Shown here: positions 4,906-54,592 of the stretch, piece after piece
Layout: each line of letters begins with the position of its first letter
Numbering within the stretch: the first letter of the stretch is position 1
From: Myxococcales bacterium
GTDB taxonomy: Bacteria; Myxococcota; UBA796; SXON01
Direction of reading: 5' to 3'
NCBI GenBank assembly: GCA_009692585.1
Contig: SHYX01000012.1
Span: forward strand, 1-64,000
Length of the DNA: 64,000 bases
The notes under the pieces: model-generated
The model's database searches: none
What the model saw: the letters and a program-made list of their open reading frames with translations, nothing else
Told to the model about the DNA's origin: nothing
Program-made: the position numbers and the translations under genes

Positions 4906-6324
4906 CTACAGCGCCCCCCGCAACCGTTCCAGCTCGACCAGCGCCACGAGCCAGTCGGTGCGGGCCTTCTCCGCGTCGGCGCGCGCCTGATCGACGTCCT
5001 TCTGCGCGGTGATCAGGTCGCGCTGGAGGCTGCGCCCCTCCACCAGCCGCGCCTTCTCGGCGGCGAAGGTTTCTTCGGCGAGGCGCTGGTTCAGCTCCGC
5101 CAACTCAAGGAGCTGTCTGGCACCGTCGAGGCTGCGCAGTTGGGCCCGCGCGGCGGTCTCGACGGTCGCCTCCGCGGCGGCGAGTGACAACTTCGCCCGG
5201 GCGAGGGCGGCGTGGGACTGGGCAAGGCTGCCTCGATCAAGCCGATTCAGGAGCGGCATGGTCAGCGTTGCCCCCACGCTCCACTGTGGCAACTTCGCGT
5301 CGCCGATCTCGGCGAGGCTGCCCGAGAGGGTCGGGTCGTACCCGCGGAGGGCCACGCCGCCGTTGGCGTCCAACTGAGGCAGGAGTCCGTGGCGGGCGTC
5401 TCGGACGTCCTGGGTACGCGTGTCGACCTCGAGCCGGGCCAGGCGGAGCGAGGGGTTTCCTTGCGCCACCGCGTCGAGGATGGCACGGTCGTCACCGGTG
5501 ACATCTATCGGCGGAGCCGGACGGCTGCTCAGGGTCAGGCTCGCCTCCAACGACACCCCGATGAGCACGGCAAGCTGGTCCTCCGCGGCCTCGGCCGCGG
5601 CTTCGGCATCGAGCGTGGCCCGCTCGGCCTGGGCCAGCGCCGCGGCGATCCGCGTGGCCTCGACCTGGGCGAGCTTGCCCGCCCCGACCAGGGCGCGGGT
5701 GATGCGGGCCTGTTCGGCGGTGGCCGCGCGCGACTGGGCGGCGATCTCGACGAGGCGCCGGGCGGTGTGGAGACCCCAGTAGCCACGCGCGGCGGCGGCC
5801 ACGGCGTCCTGGCGGGCAATCTCGAGGGCCAGCTCGGCGGACGAGACGGCGCCCTGGGCGGCATGGACACCACGCAGATTCCACGCGAGGCGGTGCCCCT
5901 GCAGCAGACTCTGCGAGAGACCGAGGGTCAATTTGCTGCCCCAGGCCGGCTCGCCGAACTCGGCGTCGAACTGCTCGATGGTGAAGGTGGAGTCGGACTG
6001 GTCGGCGTCGAAGTCCAACGACAGGCCGGTGCCGGTGGCGAAGGCCTGGGTGAGGCCGGCGTTGATGGTGTAGCCGGTGGTGTCGCTGGTGTAGGCGCCG
6101 AACTGCGCCTGTCCTTCGTCGGTCGAGGCGAAGGTGGTGCCACCGAGACTGAGCATCGGCTCGAACGGCGCGCGGGCGACCAGCAGGGCGCCCAGCGCCG
6201 CCGCGTGATCGGTCTGGGCAAGGGCGACGCCCGACGCGGACGCCGACGCGCGCGCCAGGGCGTCGGCGTAGCTCACCGAGACCGGGTCCGCGGCGCGGGC
6301 GGCAAGGACGAAAACAAGGATCAT
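4906..6324 (-). CDS. TolC-family outer-membrane efflux channel
   Basis: A 472-aa outer-membrane protein with signal peptide (MILVFVLAARA) and two long alpha-helical repeats typical of outer-membrane efflux proteins: alternating Ala-rich coiled coil and short beta segments, with the second repeat containing 'GNPSLRLARLEVDTRTQDV' and a C-terminal coiled coil ending 'VALVELERLRGAL'. It would form the trimeric exit duct for the RND pumps. Its ATG overlaps the stop of the upstream RND gene by four bases, so translation is coupled. Substrate unknown. Confidence 0.9.
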   Translation of the reverse strand: MILVFVLAARAADPVSVSYADALARASASASGVALAQTDHAAALGALLVARAPFEPMLSLGGTTFASTDEGQAQFGAYTSDTTGYTINAGLTQAFATGTGLSLDFDADQSDSTFTIEQFDAEFGEPAWGSKLTLGLSQSLLQGHRLAWNLRGVHAAQGAVSSAELALEIARQDAVAAAARGYWGLHTARRLVEIAAQSRAATAEQARITRALVGAGKLAQVEATRIAAALAQAERATLDAEAAAEAAEDQLAVLIGVSLEASLTLSSRPAPPIDVTGDDRAILDAVAQGNPSLRLARLEVDTRTQDVRDARHGLLPQLDANGGVALRGYDPTLSGSLAEIGDAKLPQWSVGATLTMPLLNRLDRGSLAQSHAALARAKLSLAAAEATVETAARAQLRSLDGARQLLELAELNQRLAEETFAAEKARLVEGRSLQRDLITAQKDVDQARADAEKARTDWLVALVELERLRGAL

Positions 6325-36748: not shown

Positions 36749-37180
36749 TCACCCCCCCTGCAAAAACCCGGCCGCCGCCCCCGAGACGTTCCCTGCCGCG
36801 TCGATCACCCACAACTCGACGGTGTAATCGTTGGTCGTGATCACCTCCGGAATCTCGATGATGAGGGTGGGAGCGGTCCAGCAGGCGCCGCGAACGTCGG
36901 CGCACGCGCGGATCGGGTACTCGAACCCCATCGGCTGGCCGGCGCCCGTGGCCACGTCGAACTTCGCGACACCGTCGACGAGATCGCCCTCGGCGTCCGA
37001 GACGGTCGCGTCGGCATACATCTGGAACTCCCCCGGCGAAAGCTCGTCCCAGATGACCACCAGGGCGTCGATGACCGGCGCCTCCCCGAGGCTGGCCGCG
37101 GTGTGGGCGGTGTCGTCGCTGCCCTCGGGGGCGGCGGTGTCGATATCGGCACCGGTACAGGCGAAAAGGAGGATCAGCAT
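36749..37180 (-). CDS. Small Thr/Asp-rich lipoprotein
   Basis: A 143-aa lipoprotein: signal MLILLFAC with an unusually short lead before the lipobox Cys, a linker (DIDTAAPEGSDDTAHT), and an Ig-like beta domain ('PVIDALVVIWDELSPGEFQMYADATVSD') ending 'GNVSGAAAGFLQGG'. The start codon is set by the TAAAAT hexamer six bases upstream. The gene begins just after the end of a group II intron remnant, so its promoter may lie in intron tail sequence. Function unknown. Confidence 0.7.
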   Translation of the reverse strand: MLILLFACTGADIDTAAPEGSDDTAHTAASLGEAPVIDALVVIWDELSPGEFQMYADATVSDAEGDLVDGVAKFDVATGAGQPMGFEYPIRACADVRGACWTAPTLIIEIPEVITTNDYTVELWVIDAAGNVSGAAAGFLQGG

Positions 37181-40319: not shown

Positions 40320-41819
40320 CTACTGCTCCAGCTTCAGATTGACGTTCGCGCCCATGGACATCTCTTCCTCGAGCTTCTTGAACTCGTCCTCGCGGTAGAG
40401 CCCACGGAGCAGGTCCGACTTGAACTCGTTCAGCGGACGCTTCGTCGTGACCACGAACTCGAGCACGCCGTTGGCGCGGTCGAACACGCGCTCCGCCACG
40501 CCCTCGGCCCCCTTCGTCGCCGACAGGACGTCCGAAGCGGCGAGCTTGACCGCGGTGGAGGTCACGCCGACAATGCGGACCGTCACCTCGATGCCCTTCT
40601 CGTCGCGCTTCTTCCAGTAGGTGAAGAGCTGGTCGCCGAGGTCCTGACCGAGGAGATCTCCGAGGCGGCGACCGGCCTCGCTGGCGGCGGTCTGGGAGTC
40701 GGGTCCGGTGCCGGACTGGGAGCGAACGGCGGACGCCACGATGTCGCCGGTGACGGTATCTACGATCCGGATCGCCAGCGTGGCGGTCGCGGTGTGCGCT
40801 CCATCCTGCTCACCGTTGTAGACGATCGCGGTCACGCCGAGCATGATGGCGTCGCTCGCGTACTTCGAGCCGAGTTCCATGGCCTTCTTGGCGGAAGCCG
40901 ACGGGTCGGCGATCCCGGTCATGAACAGACCGTCGGCGCCGACGAACTGCTGACGCATCTCGCTCACCACCTTGGCGTCGGCAAGGCGAGCGTCACGCGC
41001 GATCAGGCGCTTGGTGATGGCCGCAGCGGACGACGGATCGGGCCGCGGCTGCTTGAGCGCCTCAGGGGGGAAGTACTTCTTGATGGAGAGGTTCATCGAA
41101 CTGAACGCCTCGCTGTCGTTGGAGCTCACGGTGCTCTTGTCCGACATCGAAGCCTTCGCCGAGGAGTTCGAGCTGCTGCTGGAGCGGCTCGCCGCGGCGG
41201 CGGCACCGCTGTACCCCACCGCATAGGCGGCCTCACGAGACGACGAGTCGTTCGCGGACTTCGACGATGCCGAGGCAGACACGTCATTCTTCTGGTCGTA
41301 GCTGGAGTCCTTGCTGTAGTCGACGGTGCTGAGCGAGACCTCCTCGGCCACGACCGGACCCGTCGCGGGCTTGGCGTCACCCGCGAAGTACTCCTCGATG
41401 AGTACCGCGATGGTCCGACGCGACGCGACATCCATCGAGAACCCGGAGGACTCCAGGTTGCTCTTGAGCGTGTCCTCGTCGACGTAGGCCTTGAGGATGA
41501 CGGAATACTTCTTCCCGTCGTCGTCCTCCTTCACGATCTCGGTGCGCTTGACCATGGCGACCGCCGTCTCGAGGAACTCCTCGACGTCGTCCGCCTTGGC
41601 GCTCAACACCTCGGGAGTCACGTACTGCGTCAAGGACTTGCGGACAGCCTGCTTCGTGGCCTCCTCGATCGCATCCTCACGCGCGTTCATCGCATCCTTC
41701 TTCCTGGTGTAGCTGGCTTCGCCCTTGCCGGTGAGCGCGACCTCCGCTGCCCAGACGGGCGAGGGAGCGGCGAGCAGAAGAGAGATCACCGAAAGCACGA
41801 TGGAAGAGATGCGGACCAT
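40320..41819 (-). CDS. Secreted protein with FlgT N-terminal-type domain
   Basis: A 499-aa protein: signal peptide ending SPVWA-A (about residue 24); then 'EVALTGKGEASY...AREDAIEEATKQAVRKSL', which matches the FlgT_N/LPP20-type alpha-beta domain (AR..AI..A...A pattern); then an approximately 60-residue Ser/Ala-rich disordered linker (about 170-235); then a CsgG/FlgT-middle-like domain ('ARDARLADAKVVSEM' to 'IVDTVTGDIVASAV') and a further alpha/beta repeat. ATG 41819 has a GGAG ribosome site. Middle gene of the three-gene operon. Confidence 0.7.
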   Translation of the reverse strand: MVRISSIVLSVISLLLAAPSPVWAAEVALTGKGEASYTRKKDAMNAREDAIEEATKQAVRKSLTQYVTPEVLSAKADDVEEFLETAVAMVKRTEIVKEDDDGKKYSVILKAYVDEDTLKSNLESSGFSMDVASRRTIAVLIEEYFAGDAKPATGPVVAEEVSLSTVDYSKDSSYDQKNDVSASASSKSANDSSSREAAYAVGYSGAAAAASRSSSSSNSSAKASMSDKSTVSSNDSEAFSSMNLSIKKYFPPEALKQPRPDPSSAAAITKRLIARDARLADAKVVSEMRQQFVGADGLFMTGIADPSASAKKAMELGSKYASDAIMLGVTAIVYNGEQDGAHTATATLAIRIVDTVTGDIVASAVRSQSGTGPDSQTAASEAGRRLGDLLGQDLGDQLFTYWKKRDEKGIEVTVRIVGVTSTAVKLAASDVLSATKGAEGVAERVFDRANGVLEFVVTTKRPLNEFKSDLLRGLYREDEFKKLEEEMSMGANVNLKLEQ

Positions 41820-41900
41820 GGGGAGGCTCCAAATAGTGTCGTATGCGGGAACGTGCCGGTCCATCCGCGTTCCGGGCGGGCGGACCGGCGCGGGGGGGCG

Positions 41901-48028: not shown

Positions 48029-48062
48029 CTCAAGCTTTCCGGCCGGTGACCGATGGGCGGCC
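48029..48062 (+). promoter_or_regulatory. Shared surface-gene promoter block, copy A
   Basis: Thirty-four bases that align without gaps, to the start codon, with copies at 49575 and 53095. Common core: CTCAA(G/C)CTTTC, then about ten variable bases ending in TG or GTG, then ACCGAT, one variable base, GGC(G/C)G(C/T)C and the ATG. The CTCAAG and CCGAT boxes recall sigma-28/FliA promoters (TCAAG.T ... GCCGATA). Confidence 0.75.
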
Positions 48063-49595
48063 ATGCTCTTTCTCGTCTCGGCCGCCGTCGCCGCGTCTTC
48101 CGCCAGCTCCTTCGCCACCGACGGCGGCGATTGGGTCGGCGGCACGGTGGAGGGTGGCGTGCTCGTCCTGGAGGACACGGCGGCCGACCTCGACCTCGGT
48201 GACGTACTGACCTTCGAGCTGACCGCACGCGCCCGGCTCGCGACCGGCGACCGATTCGAAGTGTCTCTGTCCGACACGTGCACGCTGAGCGTGGACTACA
48301 CCGGCGCGCGTAGCATCGGCTTCGGCACCGACGCGGCGCCCTTCGCCGCCGCCGAGCTGGAGATGGTGCCGGACGCCGCGCCGCTGCTGAGCCCGATGAG
48401 CGACGAGTCGGGGGGCATCCGTGACCCCGACGTCGTCGAGTTCGACGGTGAGTGGTGGATGCTGTACGGGGCTGTGGACAGCGCCGGCGCCTCGGCGGTC
48501 CACGCGGCACGGTCGTCGGACCTCAGGACCTGGACCCGAGTGGAGGGTCTCTCCCTCCCCGGCGCGAACGAGCCCACCGCCATCGTCGAGGCCACGTCCC
48601 TGGTGCTCTACTACACCGACGGGGGCTCGATCTGGCGCACCCAGTCGGACGACGGCGTGTCCTTCGACTTCCCGACCGTGGCGCTGGCCCCGGGCCCGGG
48701 CTTCGACGCGCCGGGGCTCGGCGACCCGTCGATGCTCTTCGAGGGCGACGGGCTCTGGCGCCTCTGGTACAGCGTGCCGACGACCGGCGCGTCTGGCTCC
48801 GCGACCAGCGCCGACGGACTCACCTTCACGCGCGAGGCGGAGCTCTCCCCGGACGCGACCCGGCTCAGCGGCCTCGACGTGAGCCTTGGGCCGCTCGGAT
48901 TCGAGGCGGTGTACACGATGCTCGACAGCGTCGGCTTCGCGTCGAGCGTCGACGACAGCACGCTGGCCGACGCGTCGACCGACGTGCACCCGGCGCTGGT
49001 GATGAACGAAGCGGCGTGGTCTGATGGCGGCTTCGGTACCGCCGCGCTGGTGCGCGACGGGGTCGATCTGACGGTGTTCGTCGACGCGCTGGATGACGGC
49101 GCCTCGGTGATCGGTCGTGTCGCGACACGGCCAGAACCAGGCACCTGGGGCTCTCTCTCCATGACCTGGGACGGGACCAAGGTCCTCGCCTCCTGGAACG
49201 GCGGCCCCGAGCAGAGCTGCGCGCTCGGCGCGTTCCAGGGCATCTCGATCGTGGGGGTCGGCCGCGCCGAAGTCGACGAGGTCCGCGTGGACTACTCGAC
49301 GAACGCGGGCGGCGACACCGCGGATACCGGCGCCGGCGACACCGCCAACTCGGTCGACACCGCGGACAGCGCCGATCCCGGCGACACCGCCTCCGACACC
49401 GCCGACACCGGGATCGCCGCCTACAACGCCGGCGAGTGGCTCGGCGAGCCGGGTGGATGTGGGTGCCAGGCCGGGAGCTCCGGCGGCGGCGGCGGCCTGA
49501 TCATCGCGAGTGTCCTGGCGCGGGGCCGGCGGGGGAGCCCTCGGCCGCACTCCCGAGCTATGGGGTCGGGCGCTCTCAAGCTTTCTCCCCCTTGA
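48063..49595 (+). CDS. Secreted five-bladed beta-propeller protein with a MYXO-CTERM-like tail
   Basis: A 510-aa protein. Signal peptide (about 1-20); an N-terminal beta module (about 30-95); then a propeller of the GH43/arabinanase-like fold with repeated 'IRDPDVVEFDGEWWMLYG' and 'LGDPSMLFEGDGLWRLWYS' blades (about 110-320); another beta module; a Thr/Asp linker ('GGDTADTGAGDTANS...'); and a tail 'GGCGCQAGSSGGGGGLIIAS' with hydrophobic stretch and 'RGRRGS' cluster, like MYXO-CTERM sorting tails. It continues about 20 residues beyond the Arg cluster, which is unusual. No catalytic triad is evident, so enzyme or lectin cannot be decided. Confidence 0.7.
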   Translation: MLFLVSAAVAASSASSFATDGGDWVGGTVEGGVLVLEDTAADLDLGDVLTFELTARARLATGDRFEVSLSDTCTLSVDYTGARSIGFGTDAAPFAAAELEMVPDAAPLLSPMSDESGGIRDPDVVEFDGEWWMLYGAVDSAGASAVHAARSSDLRTWTRVEGLSLPGANEPTAIVEATSLVLYYTDGGSIWRTQSDDGVSFDFPTVALAPGPGFDAPGLGDPSMLFEGDGLWRLWYSVPTTGASGSATSADGLTFTREAELSPDATRLSGLDVSLGPLGFEAVYTMLDSVGFASSVDDSTLADASTDVHPALVMNEAAWSDGGFGTAALVRDGVDLTVFVDALDDGASVIGRVATRPEPGTWGSLSMTWDGTKVLASWNGGPEQSCALGAFQGISIVGVGRAEVDEVRVDYSTNAGGDTADTGAGDTANSVDTADSADPGDTASDTADTGIAAYNAGEWLGEPGGCGCQAGSSGGGGGLIIASVLARGRRGSPRPHSRAMGSGALKLSPP

Positions 49596-49608
49596 CCGAT
49601 TGGCCGTC
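49575..49608 (+). promoter_or_regulatory. Shared surface-gene promoter block, copy B
   Basis: Same 34-base layout ending at ATG 49609. Its first part overlaps the last seven codons and stop of the preceding gene, so the extra C-terminus there is partly promoter sequence. Confidence 0.75.
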
Positions 49609-52600
49609 ATGCTCCTGCTCATCTACGCCCGCGCCACGGCCGCCACTCTCGTCGTCGGGGTTGACGCGGACACCATCCAGGACACCATCGATCTGGCCGT
49701 CGACGGCGACGTAATCGAGATTCCGGCGGGCACGTGGACCGAGGCGATCGACTTCGGCACACGATCGATCACCATCCGCGGTGTCGGCGTGGGCTCGGGA
49801 GGGACCGTGTTGGCGCCCGGAAGCTCGGACGACGTGGTCACGATGAGCAGCGGCCGCGTGTGTCACCTGGAGGACCTGGAGATCCAGCCCTACGGGGCCA
49901 CGGGCGTGCACCTGGAAAACGGTGAGCTGAACCTGCTCGGGGTCACCATCGTGTCGGCCGGGAACTCCACGGCGCGAGGCGGCGCGATCTACGTCGACGG
50001 CGGCGAGCTTGATCTCGACAGCGTGGTCATCACCGGCTCCAGCGCGGCCTATGGCGCCCACCTTTACGCCACCGGCGGCGCCGCGGTCTCGGCGAGCGAC
50101 CTGACCCTCACCGGCGGCAGCGCGACGTACGGCGGCGCGATCTACGCCGAGGATGGCAGCAGCCTGACCCTCTTGAGCGTGACCGCGACCGGGCCGTCGG
50201 CCAGCGCCCACGGCGGTTTCGCGTACCTGGACAACGCCGACTTCACCGCCACCGACCTGGTGCTGGCCGATCCCGCCGGCCGCAACAGCTACGGCGTCGG
50301 CTTCTACCTTACCGATCACAGCAACCTGGCCCTGATGTCGAGTTCGGTGAGCGGCGCGGTGGCCAGCGGTCGCTCCGGCGGCTTCGGGGGCGGCGCGGCG
50401 TGGCTGGGCGATGGTTCGACGGCGAGCGTCGACGACTCGACCTTCTCCGAAAACGTGGCCTGGGACGGGGGGGTCTTCGCGCTGTCCGGCGCCTCCAGCG
50501 CCGCGTTCACCTCGGTACGCTTCGAGGACAACCTCGCCGACACCAAGGGCGGGGCGCTGAACCTCACCGACGGCGCCTCCGCCACCTGCGACGCCTGCGT
50601 CTTCACCGGCAACGACGCGGCCGACGGCGGCGCGCTCGCGCTCGGCAGCGCCACCACCTTCACCGACGACGGCGGCGCCTGGACCAACAACGACGCCTCC
50701 ACCAGCGGCGGCGGCGTCTTCATGGCGGGCTCGGCCGAGTTCGACGCGTCGGGAAGCAGCTTCTCGGCCAATGGCGCCGACACCGACGGCGGCGCGATCT
50801 TCGGGGCCGGACAGCTTCAGCTCGATGGGGGCACCTTCTCCTCGAACCTCTCCCGCGGGGGCGATGGCGGCGCCATTGCCGGCGATGCGGAGCTCACCGT
50901 GACCGGCACCGTCTTCGAGGACAACAGCGCGCAGCTCGGCAACGGAGGCGCGATGGCGCTTCAGGGTGAGTCCTCGATCAGCTCCTGCCGCTTCGACGCC
51001 AACGACGCCGACGAGTCGGGTGGAGGCGTGTGGGCGACCGGCGCCAGCATCGCGCTGTGGGAGACCCACTTCTTCCGCAACACGGCCGGCGGCTACGGCG
51101 GTGGGGTCGCGACCAGCGGCACCCAGGTCGTGAGCATCGCCCGGTCCTATCTCCACGGCAACCAGGCCCGGAACGGCGGCGGAATCGCGCTGATCGACGC
51201 CGACATAAGCGCCGTGCTCACCAATCTGCGCGTGACCGACAACGTCGCCACGCAGGACGGGGGCGGCGCCTATCTGCACGGCGCGGCCGATCTGGAAGTG
51301 GTGAACAACAGCTTCGCCGGAAACGACGGAGCCCGCAACGGAGGGCACCTCTACACCGCCGCCACCCTGTCGCTTGTGAACAACATCTTCTCCAGCGCCG
51401 TGGACGGCGGCGCAACCTATGGCACGGCCGCGACCACCGACCGGTACAACAACCTCGTCTGGGACAACTCGGGCGGTGACTGGAATGGCTGGAGCGACCC
51501 CACTGGTACCAGCGGCAACGTCAGCGCCGACCCGCTCTTTCTGTCCTATTCGGCCGACGGCGATGAGGCCGACGACAGCCTGTTTCTGGCCGAGGGCAGC
51601 CCGGCGATCGACACTGGCAGCGCCAGCATCTTCGATCCCGACGGCAGCCGCTCGGACATCGGCGCGTTCGGCGGTCCCGACGCGGATGTGGCCGACGACG
51701 ATGGCGACGGCTTCTTCGACAACGTCGATTGCGACGACTCCGACCCGGCCATCAACCCCGCCGAGACCGACATCCCCTACGACGGGATCGATCAGGACTG
51801 CCTCGCCGGCGACATCGTCGACGTCGATGGCGACGGCTACAGCGCCAGCGTGACCGGCGGAGGCGACTGCGACGACGCCGACCCCGCGGTCCACCCCGGC
51901 GCCACCGAGCGCTGGTACGACGGCATCGACGCCGACTGCTCCAACTCCAGCGACTACGACCAGGACGGCGACCACCACAACGCGGCCTTCGAGCCGGGCG
52001 GTGACGACTGCAACGACGAGGACGTGACCATTCATGGCGGCGCGCTGGAGATCTGGTACGATGGAATCGATCAAGACTGCGACGGTCGCAACGACTACGA
52101 CCGCGACAAGGACGGGTTCATCGCCTGGGATCACGGCGGCTCGGACTGCGACGACTACAACGCCGCGCGCCACCCCGGCAACGAGGAGATCCCGTACGAC
52201 GGCATCGACGCCGATTGCGACGGAGCCGACGTCGTGGACGTCGACGGCGACGGCTGGGTGGCCGAAGAGGCCGGCGGCACCGACTGCAACGACGCCCAGG
52301 CCACGGTGTACCCGGGCGCGGTCGAGGACCCCGTCGACGGCTTCGACACCGACTGCGACGGCTTCTCCGAGTGGGATCGGGATGGCGACGGATACGACGA
52401 CGAGGTCTACGGCGGCGGCGACTGCGCCGACTTCGACGCCGACATCCATCCCGACGCCCGCGAGGTCTGGTACGACGGCTACGATCAGGACTGCGACGGC
52501 CGCGACGACGACCAGGACGCCGACGGCTACGCCATCGCCGACGACTGCGACGACACCAATCCGGCCACCCACCCCGACGCGCTCGAGCGCTGGGACGGCG

Positions 52601-53082
52601 AAGACAACGACTGCGACGGCTACAACGAGCACGACGATCGGGACAACGACGGCCTGAGCGACCTCCAGGAGTGGATGCTCGGCAGTGATCCTGAGGACCC
52701 CGACACCGACGGCGACACCCTCGTCGACGGCGGGGAGTTCGACGCCGGCCCGGACCTCGACGGCGACTACGTCCTGGACCTGCTCGACACCGACGACGAC
52801 AACGACGGCATCGCCTCACGCACGGAGCTGACCACAGACGTGGATGGCGACGGCGTGGCGGACGTGGACATCGACGGCGACGGCATCAACAACGCACGCG
52901 ACGACGATGCCGACGGCGACGGGCTGAGCGACCGGGACGAGGGCGCGGTCGACCTCGACTTCGACGGTGTCGGCGACTGGCTCGACTACCAGGGCTCGCT
53001 GGTCGGCGGCGGCTGCGGCACCGGCTGGGCGGGCGCGATGACGCCGGGGCTGTTGCTGCTGGCGATGCGGCGGCGACCGTAA
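49609..53082 (+). CDS. Giant surface protein: beta-helix plus MopE-type repeats, MYXO-CTERM
   Basis: A 1157-aa secreted protein. Signal-like start (LLLIYARATAATLVV). From about 30 to 640 a right-handed beta-helix with many 'GGAIY', 'NGGAMAL' and 'GGGVW' rungs, as in polymorphic outer-membrane/parallel-beta-helix proteins. From about 690 to 1010 about nine MopE-like metal-binding repeats (DDDGDG..DCDD.DPAI.P.A.E..YDGIDQDC). Then thrombospondin type-3-like Asp repeats, and a C-terminal 'GGGCGTGWAGAMTPGLLLLAMRRRP' anchoring/sorting tail. Ca-rich Asp repeats suggest a rigid stalk that needs calcium. Surface adhesin or sheath component is a reasonable guess; no function is shown. Confidence 0.85.
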   Translation: MLLLIYARATAATLVVGVDADTIQDTIDLAVDGDVIEIPAGTWTEAIDFGTRSITIRGVGVGSGGTVLAPGSSDDVVTMSSGRVCHLEDLEIQPYGATGVHLENGELNLLGVTIVSAGNSTARGGAIYVDGGELDLDSVVITGSSAAYGAHLYATGGAAVSASDLTLTGGSATYGGAIYAEDGSSLTLLSVTATGPSASAHGGFAYLDNADFTATDLVLADPAGRNSYGVGFYLTDHSNLALMSSSVSGAVASGRSGGFGGGAAWLGDGSTASVDDSTFSENVAWDGGVFALSGASSAAFTSVRFEDNLADTKGGALNLTDGASATCDACVFTGNDAADGGALALGSATTFTDDGGAWTNNDASTSGGGVFMAGSAEFDASGSSFSANGADTDGGAIFGAGQLQLDGGTFSSNLSRGGDGGAIAGDAELTVTGTVFEDNSAQLGNGGAMALQGESSISSCRFDANDADESGGGVWATGASIALWETHFFRNTAGGYGGGVATSGTQVVSIARSYLHGNQARNGGGIALIDADISAVLTNLRVTDNVATQDGGGAYLHGAADLEVVNNSFAGNDGARNGGHLYTAATLSLVNNIFSSAVDGGATYGTAATTDRYNNLVWDNSGGDWNGWSDPTGTSGNVSADPLFLSYSADGDEADDSLFLAEGSPAIDTGSASIFDPDGSRSDIGAFGGPDADVADDDGDGFFDNVDCDDSDPAINPAETDIPYDGIDQDCLAGDIVDVDGDGYSASVTGGGDCDDADPAVHPGATERWYDGIDADCSNSSDYDQDGDHHNAAFEPGGDDCNDEDVTIHGGALEIWYDGIDQDCDGRNDYDRDKDGFIAWDHGGSDCDDYNAARHPGNEEIPYDGIDADCDGADVVDVDGDGWVAEEAGGTDCNDAQATVYPGAVEDPVDGFDTDCDGFSEWDRDGDGYDDEVYGGGDCADFDADIHPDAREVWYDGYDQDCDGRDDDQDADGYAIADDCDDTNPATHPDALERWDGEDNDCDGYNEHDDRDNDGLSDLQEWMLGSDPEDPDTDGDTLVDGGEFDAGPDLDGDYVLDLLDTDDDNDGIASRTELTTDVDGDGVADVDIDGDGINNARDDDADGDGLSDRDEGAVDLDFDGVGDWLDYQGSLVGGGCGTGWAGAMTPGLLLLAMRRRP

Positions 53083-53094
53083 GGGTACATGCTA

Positions 53095-53128
53095 CTCAAC
53101 CTTTCCCGGGTGTGACCGATAGGCGGTC
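53095..53128 (+). promoter_or_regulatory. Shared surface-gene promoter block, copy C
   Basis: Same 34-base layout ending at ATG 53129 with CTCAAC in place of CTCAAG and ACCGATA, the closest of the three to a GCCGATA -10. Confidence 0.75.
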
Positions 53129-54592
53129 ATGCTGCTGCTCCTCGCCACCACTGCGTTTGCGCTCGAGGCCCATGGCTTCGAGCTCCTCGGCACCTCGGGC
53201 GACCCGGCCGTCTTCACACGAATCGGCTCAGCCGACGCCGGTCGCTCGGGTAGCTGGGACGCGCTGCTGGCGGTGGACTACGCCCAGAACCCGCTCGCCG
53301 AGAGCTTTCCTTGGGGCCGCGAGCCGGTGATGTCGTCGCTGGGTACGATCTACCTGGGCGGCGGGTACAGTTTCGGTGGGCTGCGCCTGGACGGGGCGCT
53401 GCCGATTCACGCGATGGGGGAAGATCAGACGGGCAGCTTCGTGGCGCCCGGCGATGCCCGCGTCGGCATCCTGGTCCCCACCTTCGCCGAGAAGGGCCTG
53501 CGCCCGGCCGTCGGCGTCCAGGCCAACCTGTGGCTCCCGACCGGAGACGAGACCCACCACGTCGGAGGGCTTGGACCCCGGGCCAGCGCCGCGGCGGTGG
53601 TCGAGAAGGACCTCGGTTACCTTGGCCTGATCGCGATGCTCGGCGCCCAGGTCGGGTTTCCGGAGCAGGACCGGAACCTGGTCGCAGGCATCGGCCCGAT
53701 GCTCGCACTCGGCGGTCGTTACCGCATCACCGACGCCGCCAGCGCCGCCCTGGAAGTGACCTCGCAGTCCGACCTGGGGCTCACCACCTGGCCGGTCGAG
53801 GCGACGCTCAGCGGACGCTACCGCCTGCCAGCCGGTGCCTGGGCGTCGGTTGGCGGCGCCGCGGGGCTTACTGAGGGCGCGGGCGCCGCGTCCTGGCGCG
53901 CGTTCGTGACCGTCGGCTGGTCCTACATCAAGCCGGCACCGCCGCCGCCCCCGCCGCAGATCGACCCCCATCTCGACACCGACGCCGACGGCATCGTCGA
54001 CGTCATCGACCGCTGCGACGACATGGCCGAGACCTACGACGGCGTCGAGGACGACGACGGTTGCCCCGAGTTCGACGGCGACCAGGACGGCGTGGCCTTC
54101 GACAAAGACGCCTGCCCCCGGGACCCCATCCGCCCCGAGCAGGATCCTCGCTACAGCGACGGCTGCCCCAAGGTCGCGGAGTTCGCCGGCGATCGCATCG
54201 TCATCACCGAGGCCATCTTCTTCGCCGAGGGCCGCTCCGAGCTGATGCCCAGCGCCATCCCGGTGCTCGAGGCCGTCCTCGGCGTCATCGAGAAGCACCC
54301 CGAGATTCCGTACTTCCTCGTCGAGGGTCACACCAACGACAACGGCTCCGACCTGTTCAACCTCCGCCTCTCCGACGCCCGCGCCTTTGCGGTGATGACA
54401 TGGTTCGGCGCACGCGGCGTGCCCAGCGAGCGCCTGCTGAGCAAGGGCTTCGGTGAGGGCCGCCCCCTGCTGCCGTTCGGGGAGCCCGACGCCGAGTCGG
54501 TGAATCGCCGCGTCGAGGTCCGGGTGGTGAAAATTGAGGAGATTCCTCGGGATGCCCGACGCCTGACGGTGCCGGTGGACGTGACGCGCTAG
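53129..54592 (+). CDS. OmpA-family outer-membrane protein
   Basis: A 487-aa protein. Signal peptide (LLLLATTAFA), an N-terminal membrane beta-barrel of about 250 residues, a Pro-rich hinge (PAPPPPPPQID), two thrombospondin type-3-like Ca motifs ('DTDADGIVDVIDRCDD', 'DGDQDGVAFDKDACPRD'), and a C-terminal OmpA peptidoglycan-binding domain ('VEGHTNDNGSDLFNLRLSDA' to 'GEGRPLLPFGEPDAESVNRRVEV'). It tethers the outer membrane to peptidoglycan. It shares the upstream block with the two previous surface genes. Confidence 0.9.
   Translation: MLLLLATTAFALEAHGFELLGTSGDPAVFTRIGSADAGRSGSWDALLAVDYAQNPLAESFPWGREPVMSSLGTIYLGGGYSFGGLRLDGALPIHAMGEDQTGSFVAPGDARVGILVPTFAEKGLRPAVGVQANLWLPTGDETHHVGGLGPRASAAAVVEKDLGYLGLIAMLGAQVGFPEQDRNLVAGIGPMLALGGRYRITDAASAALEVTSQSDLGLTTWPVEATLSGRYRLPAGAWASVGGAAGLTEGAGAASWRAFVTVGWSYIKPAPPPPPPQIDPHLDTDADGIVDVIDRCDDMAETYDGVEDDDGCPEFDGDQDGVAFDKDACPRDPIRPEQDPRYSDGCPKVAEFAGDRIVITEAIFFAEGRSELMPSAIPVLEAVLGVIEKHPEIPYFLVEGHTNDNGSDLFNLRLSDARAFAVMTWFGARGVPSERLLSKGFGEGRPLLPFGEPDAESVNRRVEVRVVKIEEIPRDARRLTVPVDVTR

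Follow-up and report, generated by a model that had tools for sequence, protein, structure and literature searches.

The window analysed here, a stretch of 64,000 nucleotides (nt) that covers positions 1 to 64,000 of contig SHYX01000012.1 of a Myxococcales bacterium (assembly GCA_009692585.1), carries three successive genes for predicted surface proteins, hereafter the propeller, helix and OmpA genes or together the trio, and directly in front of the ATG of each gene lies a block of 34 bases (sites 1 to 3, Table 1). The three blocks had been described in a sequence-only reading of the window, and their coordinates, strand, ungapped alignment and following ATG were confirmed exactly as written there. 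The anatomy TCAASCTT-N11-ACCGATnG-N6-ATG is common to 3/3 sites. Formulated as a strict pattern (CTCAASCTTTC-N8-GACCGATNGGC, 30 bases, at most 3 mismatches), the block occurs in the window at sites 1 to 3 only, with 0 mismatches each, while dinucleotide shuffles of the window gave a mean of 0.01 matches and never reached 3. A looser pattern (TCAASNTTT-N10-ACCGAT, 3 mismatches) was found at 6 places vs. 1.96 expected, the three places beyond sites 1 to 3 carrying 3 mismatches each. Site 2 overlaps the 3' end of the propeller gene, whose TGA stop codon (49593-49595) enters the -10 element, and a start of the OmpA gene further upstream than 53129 is excluded by an in-frame TAG at 53120-53122, 9 nt upstream of that ATG.

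Table 1. Trio genes and the blocks preceding them (positions in the window; aa, amino acids)
Feature	Position	Strand	Length or layout	Description
Site 1	48029..48062	+	-35 TCAAGCTT 48030-48037; N11; -10 ACCGATGG 48049-48056; 6 nt; ATG 48063	Sigma-28-type promoter candidate
Propeller gene	48063..49595	+	510 aa	Predicted five-bladed-propeller-type secreted protein; Pfam GH32N 4.8e-05
Site 2	49575..49608	+	-35 TCAAGCTT 49576-49583; N11; -10 ACCGATTG 49595-49602; 6 nt; ATG 49609	
Helix gene	49609..53082	+	1157 aa	Right-handed beta-helix PF13229 3e-21; MopE metal-binding repeats PF11617 4.5e-53
Site 3	53095..53128	+	-35 TCAACCTT 53096-53103; N11; -10 ACCGATAG 53115-53122; 6 nt; ATG 53129	
OmpA gene	53129..54592	+	487 aa	Predicted outer-membrane beta-barrel; OmpA domain PF00691 9.5e-12

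The likeness to FliA/sigma-28 sites and the fixed distance between block and start codon, both pointed out in the sequence-only reading, hold in all three cases. The sigma-28 (FliA) consensus is given as TAAAGTTT-n11-GCCGATAA (PMC2859248), and its separation of the octamers by exactly 11 bp and its CCGAT core are present in 3/3 window sites, with the ATG always 6 nt after the -10 octamer. In Escherichia coli, transcription of the aer gene begins 6 bp past the -10 octamer (PMC2859248); with this spacing as a ruler, the first base of the window transcripts would be the A of the ATG or the base preceding it, and leaderless transcripts are expected from the 6-nt distance. The window transcripts are thus probably leaderless, in line with the leaderless or very short leaders suggested earlier. 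Octamer positions, N11 spacing, CCGAT core and, in relatives, flagellar targets are shared with the sigma-28 promoters of E. coli, whereas here the -35 element reads TCAAS, the +1 should fall on the start codon, leaving neither leader nor Shine-Dalgarno sequence, the promoter can contain the stop codon of the preceding gene, and three surface proteins are among the targets.

An exact scan of genome contigs with the pattern matched 2 stretches. The first, L001, lies before a helix orthologue in the Deltaproteobacteria metagenome-assembled genome (MAG) TH-Jun18-28 (G001), and the 22 genomes of its family (G001-G022) are the relatives considered below; the second, L002:709-736 (-), is an exact strict-pattern match upstream of an open reading frame in an Acidimicrobiales MAG, which was set aside as too distant for comparison. 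In G001 the strict pattern occurs at 4 places, before the three trio orthologues and flgB (control 0), and the 22 genomes together contain 27 places, distributed over 11 of them, compared with 2 places for the reversed control. The downstream genes are flagellar at 16 places, FliA-family sigma genes at 2, trio orthologues at 9 (5 propeller, 2 helix, 2 OmpA) and unrelated at 0/27. The 18 non-trio sites face, by Pfam, flgB-type (4), flgD (2), flhA (4), fliF (1), flagellin (1), rod-binding/M23 (1), fliH-type (1), fliJ-type (1), fliN (1) and FliA-family sigma (2) genes, the fliJ-type call being below the Pfam cut-off; two of the flgB-type calls are above it (L006, L018), one is just below (L020) and one has no Pfam match (L035), the last two being assigned by likeness. 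The products of the fliH-type, fliJ-type, fliN, flhA and sigma genes are cytoplasmic or inner-membrane proteins. The block had been proposed to define a regulon for cell-surface proteins, to be checked by a genome scan; run on the 22 relatives, the scan returned flagellar targets, several of them cytoplasmic or inner-membrane, rather than secreted proteins only, and at 18/27 strict sites the downstream gene is flagellar or codes for a FliA-family sigma. In view of these targets the idea of a regulon confined to surface proteins was rejected, and the regulon is better read as a flagellar one containing three surface proteins. The gap between the GAT of the -10 element and the start codon is 8-9 nt in 9/9 trio genes and 8-11 nt in 8/18 non-trio genes (flgD 2, flhA 4, rod-binding 1, fliJ-type 1).

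The kinship between trio and flagellar sites is also seen when each set is scored with the other. A flagellar matrix, derived from the 18 sites that face flagellar or sigma genes in other genomes, gives the window sites scores of 38.0, 29.4 and 34.6, and since the next best position on both strands reaches only 10.5 (58689, -), the neighbouring genes lack any block of this kind, as had been observed for the housekeeping neighbours from the sequence alone. With this matrix 13/17 trio propeller genes show a site with the ATG at 8-9 nt, against 0/10 paralogous propeller genes. Over the trio and paralogue loci, 33 of 582,872 scored positions reach 10, corresponding to 29 distinct places, of which 21 are at the starts of trio genes, 6 at the start of flhA and 2 elsewhere. 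In the opposite direction, a trio matrix from 18 distinct trio-gene sites detected a site directly before flhA in 17/17 family loci (scores 7.8-33.8). In 3/17 (G002, G012, G004) the flhA site was not the best of its locus, a better one lying near the flhA 3' end or beyond. The trio-matrix scan was relied on for 6/17 loci (G015, G018, G019, G020, G021, G022) in which a scan limited to 110 nt gave no flhA site.

The blocks are therefore, very probably, sigma-28 (FliA-type) promoters of a flagellar regulon that would yield leaderless mRNAs, and the trio would be made together with the flagellum. The host would belong to a flagellated, Myxococcota-like lineage, in which the -35 (TCAAS) and -10 (CCGAT) elements would be read by RNA polymerase carrying a sigma of the FliA family, most likely the kind encoded next to flhA. 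The products would be a surface propeller, a surface beta-helix/MopE protein and an outer-membrane barrel anchored through OmpA. In most relatives a single promoter before the propeller gene probably serves the whole trio, while the window and its two nearest relatives would use one promoter per trio gene.

Several observations weigh against this interpretation. Leaders of 18-119 nt are seen in 10/18 flagellar and sigma genes, so leaderless starts would be only part of the regulon, and 4/17 trio propeller genes deviate from the leaderless layout: 50 nt separate the site from the first in-frame start in G004 and G006, G007 has a weak site (3.4), and G010 has none within 110 nt upstream and one of 13.4 about 400 nt upstream. 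Two places scoring at least 10 are unexplained, G015:C6:73968 (-; 19.1) and G010:C181:33202 (-), the second lying some 400 nt ahead of the propeller gene in G010. Outside the family, where at least 28 flhA genes are present and 20 loci were examined, a flhA site scoring at least 8.7 lies within about 115 nt upstream of the start of the hidden Markov model match in 9/20, some with a longer leader by eye, and the remaining 11/20 loci have no such site. The two cross-tests are not wholly independent, because all sites were first found through the pattern of the window sites. Flagella and sigma factor of the window itself are deduced from relatives at 91-93% HisS identity, and up to three kinds of FliA-like sigma are candidate readers.

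As to the proteins, the predicted structure of the propeller protein (mean predicted local distance difference test, pLDDT, 81) matches the folds of GH62, GH130, GH43 and GH32 propellers. A search among 5.8 billion proteins (7,997 candidates scored) returned 20 homologues, 3 named 'hypothetical protein' and the others carrying no name. The protein has an Asp/Thr/Gly-rich linker and a C-terminal GGCGC tail that looks MYXO-CTERM-like by eye. The MYXO-CTERM sorting signal combines a Cys signature, given as GCGC (PMC11980579), with a hydrophobic helix and an Arg-rich tail. GGCGC is found in 12/15 aligned propeller proteins, the hydrophobic stretch of the window propeller being weak by eye, and the helix protein ends, again by eye, in a Cys/hydrophobic/Arg C-terminus. 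Both tails resemble MYXO-CTERM, and TIGR03901 (MYXO-CTERM) at E 0.01 matched neither the propeller nor the helix protein. The proposed assignment of the host to a Myxococcota-like lineage draws on this type of tail. The window propeller protein also has a C-terminal extension (49530-49595) that runs into site 2 and ends ALKLSPP-stop, the aligned G001 protein ending earlier. The OmpA protein contains Asp-rich repeats; its model (mean pLDDT 69, predicted template modelling score 0.51) shows a barrel that, with moderate confidence, resembles FapF/COG4313 channels, and a C-terminus like OmpA. The arrangement recalls TraAB, the outer-membrane exchange pair of Myxococcus (PMC3325183), as described there, in that a surface protein with a MYXO-CTERM tail is paired with an envelope protein that ends in an OmpA domain, but an identity with TraB was rejected, the OmpA protein reaching 138.3 bits vs. 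a cut-off of 700 with NF033763 over residues 270-468 only, and Pfam did not find a PA14 domain in the partners encoded in the window.

The distribution of the trio follows that of the flagellum. Orthologues were defined as high-scoring matches (OmpA 458-1038 bits, next best 175; helix at least 718, next best 536); at search thresholds OmpA or helix matches of some sort appear in 22/22 genomes, most of them due to paralogues or to domains in common. Orthologues of OmpA and of helix are each present in 19/22 genomes and missing in G003, G005 and G008, and flagellin is present in the same 19/22 and missing in the same 3 (Fisher p 0.00065, uncorrected for kinship). The trio propeller occurs in 17/19 of these genomes (not in G002 and G012), G008 having a distant copy only, and the helix gene of G020 is in two pieces on two contigs. 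FlhA was found in 17/22 genomes, each of which also has OmpA and helix; no FlhA match was obtained in G001 and G013, where OmpA, helix, flagellin and flgB are present. On a HisS tree G005 groups with the flagellated G007 and not with G003, which makes two or more joint losses of trio genes and flagellin likely; the tree represents one gene, with no HisS match in G002 and G008, the latter not placed on it, and the copy of G009 and G010 is divergent (37%). Flagellar genes have been reported in a myxobacterium, Anaeromyxobacter (PMC2330069). Some relatives keep the trio inside a flagellar locus, the order in G006 being fliP-fliR-flhB-propeller-helix-OmpA-flhA-fliF-fliG-fliH-fliI, and the FlhB NPTH motif precedes the propeller gene in 3/17 loci (G004, G006, G007; 1,500 nt checked).

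The trio may act either as a flagellar accessory or as surface proteins of the swimming phase. According to a reading that we hold to be a little below even chances, the promoters are FliA-type just as proposed above and solely the role of the trio differs, its members being non-flagellar adhesion or glycan-binding surface proteins of the swimming phase, as in Bdellovibrio, for which FliA sites are described before many non-flagellar genes including cell-surface anchors (PMC3627812). This precedent, the resemblance of the propeller model to glycan-active propellers and the MopE repeats of the helix protein all speak for it, and the attack-phase regulon of Bdellovibrio shares with the present case FliA-type promoters at non-flagellar surface genes; its motif is printed as TTAAG-N16-CCGATA (PMC3627812), one base apart from the N15 between TCAAS and CCGAT found here. 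However, the Bdellovibrio regulon is presented as a broad life-phase programme, whereas the trio lies in the flagellar locus in some relatives, within the flhB-flhA block of G006 and downstream of FlhB in G004 and G007, and its helix and OmpA genes track the presence or absence of flagellin in 22/22 genomes. We propose more tentatively, and with clear doubt, that in this bacterial family the trio may form a flagellar accessory of a new kind in the outer membrane, in which a peptidoglycan-anchored barrel and two large surface-anchored proteins, made from leaderless sigma-28 transcripts, would sit around the flagellum or along it where it exits the cell and would be lost with it.

Regarding the sigma factor, TIGR02479 (FliA/WhiG) matches above cut-off in 20/22 relatives. 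A tree of 41 sequences comprises the flhA-linked kind (12, placed for 12 genomes), a type A clade (12) and type B (17), the last being the remaining sequences and not a supported clade. Among the matches listed, a sigma of the flhA-linked kind is present in 18/19 trio genomes and 0/3 others, 12 of the 18 being assigned through the tree and G002, G004, G006, G007, G013 and G014 by score band only; G001 has neither this sigma nor flhA, perhaps owing to an incomplete assembly. It is rather unlikely that a FliA-family sigma of type A or type B recognises the sites instead, with the flhA-linked one serving other promoters. In G015 and G022 (L026, L030) a strict-pattern site lies about 120 nt upstream of the start of the type A sigma gene, and the strongest trio sites are mostly found in genomes with type A, as this alternative would predict, but G004, G006 and G009 keep sites before the propeller gene and flhA without type A, G008 has type B but neither flagellin nor the full trio, and the distribution of the flhA-linked kind points the other way. 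The flhA-linked sigma, here preferred as the reader of the sites, may also drive its own gene, as the flhA stop is the TGA of TGACCGA in 10/17 genomes (L155, L156, L157, L158, L160, L161, L163, L164, L167, L170), with CTCAAG upstream in 8 and CTGAAG/CTAAAG in 2; the sequence forms a second FliA-like site ahead of the sigma gene, through which this sigma may be autoregulated, with a promoter reaching into flhA much as site 2 reaches into the propeller gene.

The window, G001 and G021 are alike in having lpxC ahead of the propeller gene and a separate site for every trio gene, the propeller and helix genes being apart in G001 and G021. Outside the window, own sites were found at OmpA starts in 2/19 genomes (G001, G021) and at helix starts in 3/16 examined (G001, G021 and, weakly, G002), the G011 helix gene also having one; the other relatives gave a helix-start site at 1/14 loci (G002, weak) and an OmpA-start site at 0/17. 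Such rarity would be expected if sites 2 and 3 were inert copies of site 1 produced by a recent local duplication, an explanation we regard as very unlikely, given that both boxes and the 8-nt gap between GAT and ATG are kept in three species, even where the propeller and helix genes are separate. That the block is a transcription-factor binding site or a scattered repeat instead of a promoter is hardly credible. In its favour are the identity outside the boxes (CTTTC, GGC), seen in the window and to some extent in G001 and G021, and the two strong matches without recognised target; against it stand a single orientation to the gene, a near-fixed distance to the start, the exact sigma-28 spacing, a drifting centre and the location of 27/27 strict sites at flagellar genes, sigma genes or members of the trio.

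A literature search joining Myxococcota, flagella and FliA gave no match, and within the literature searched the promoter layout and the link of the three surface proteins to the flagellum are new; that leaderless sigma-28 promoters are unreported beyond that literature is not claimed. Three surface proteins of unknown role thereby become predicted members of a flagellar regulon, in a lineage where gliding prevails among the known members. The sites offer a testable leaderless layout of sigma-28 promoters, and the trio is a gene set with one promoter per member in species where, in the two relatives, its members lie separated.

Other features of the sequences were recorded in passing. The site at G015:C6:73968, on the minus strand of L097, lies past the OmpA gene on the strand opposite to the trio, without a recognised target. 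Secreted-looking proteins of the window have very short signal-like N-termini (e.g., MLLLLATTAFA), mostly without basic residues, at 48063, 49609, 53129 and 56565 (+) and at 4906-6324 and 36749-37180 (-). The product of 40320-41864 (-) matches FlgT_N below threshold (E 0.00035, 21.5 of 28.8 bits), and a reading frame at 1525-1872 consists of QHQQQRPPLL-like repeated units, which suggests a tandem repeat.

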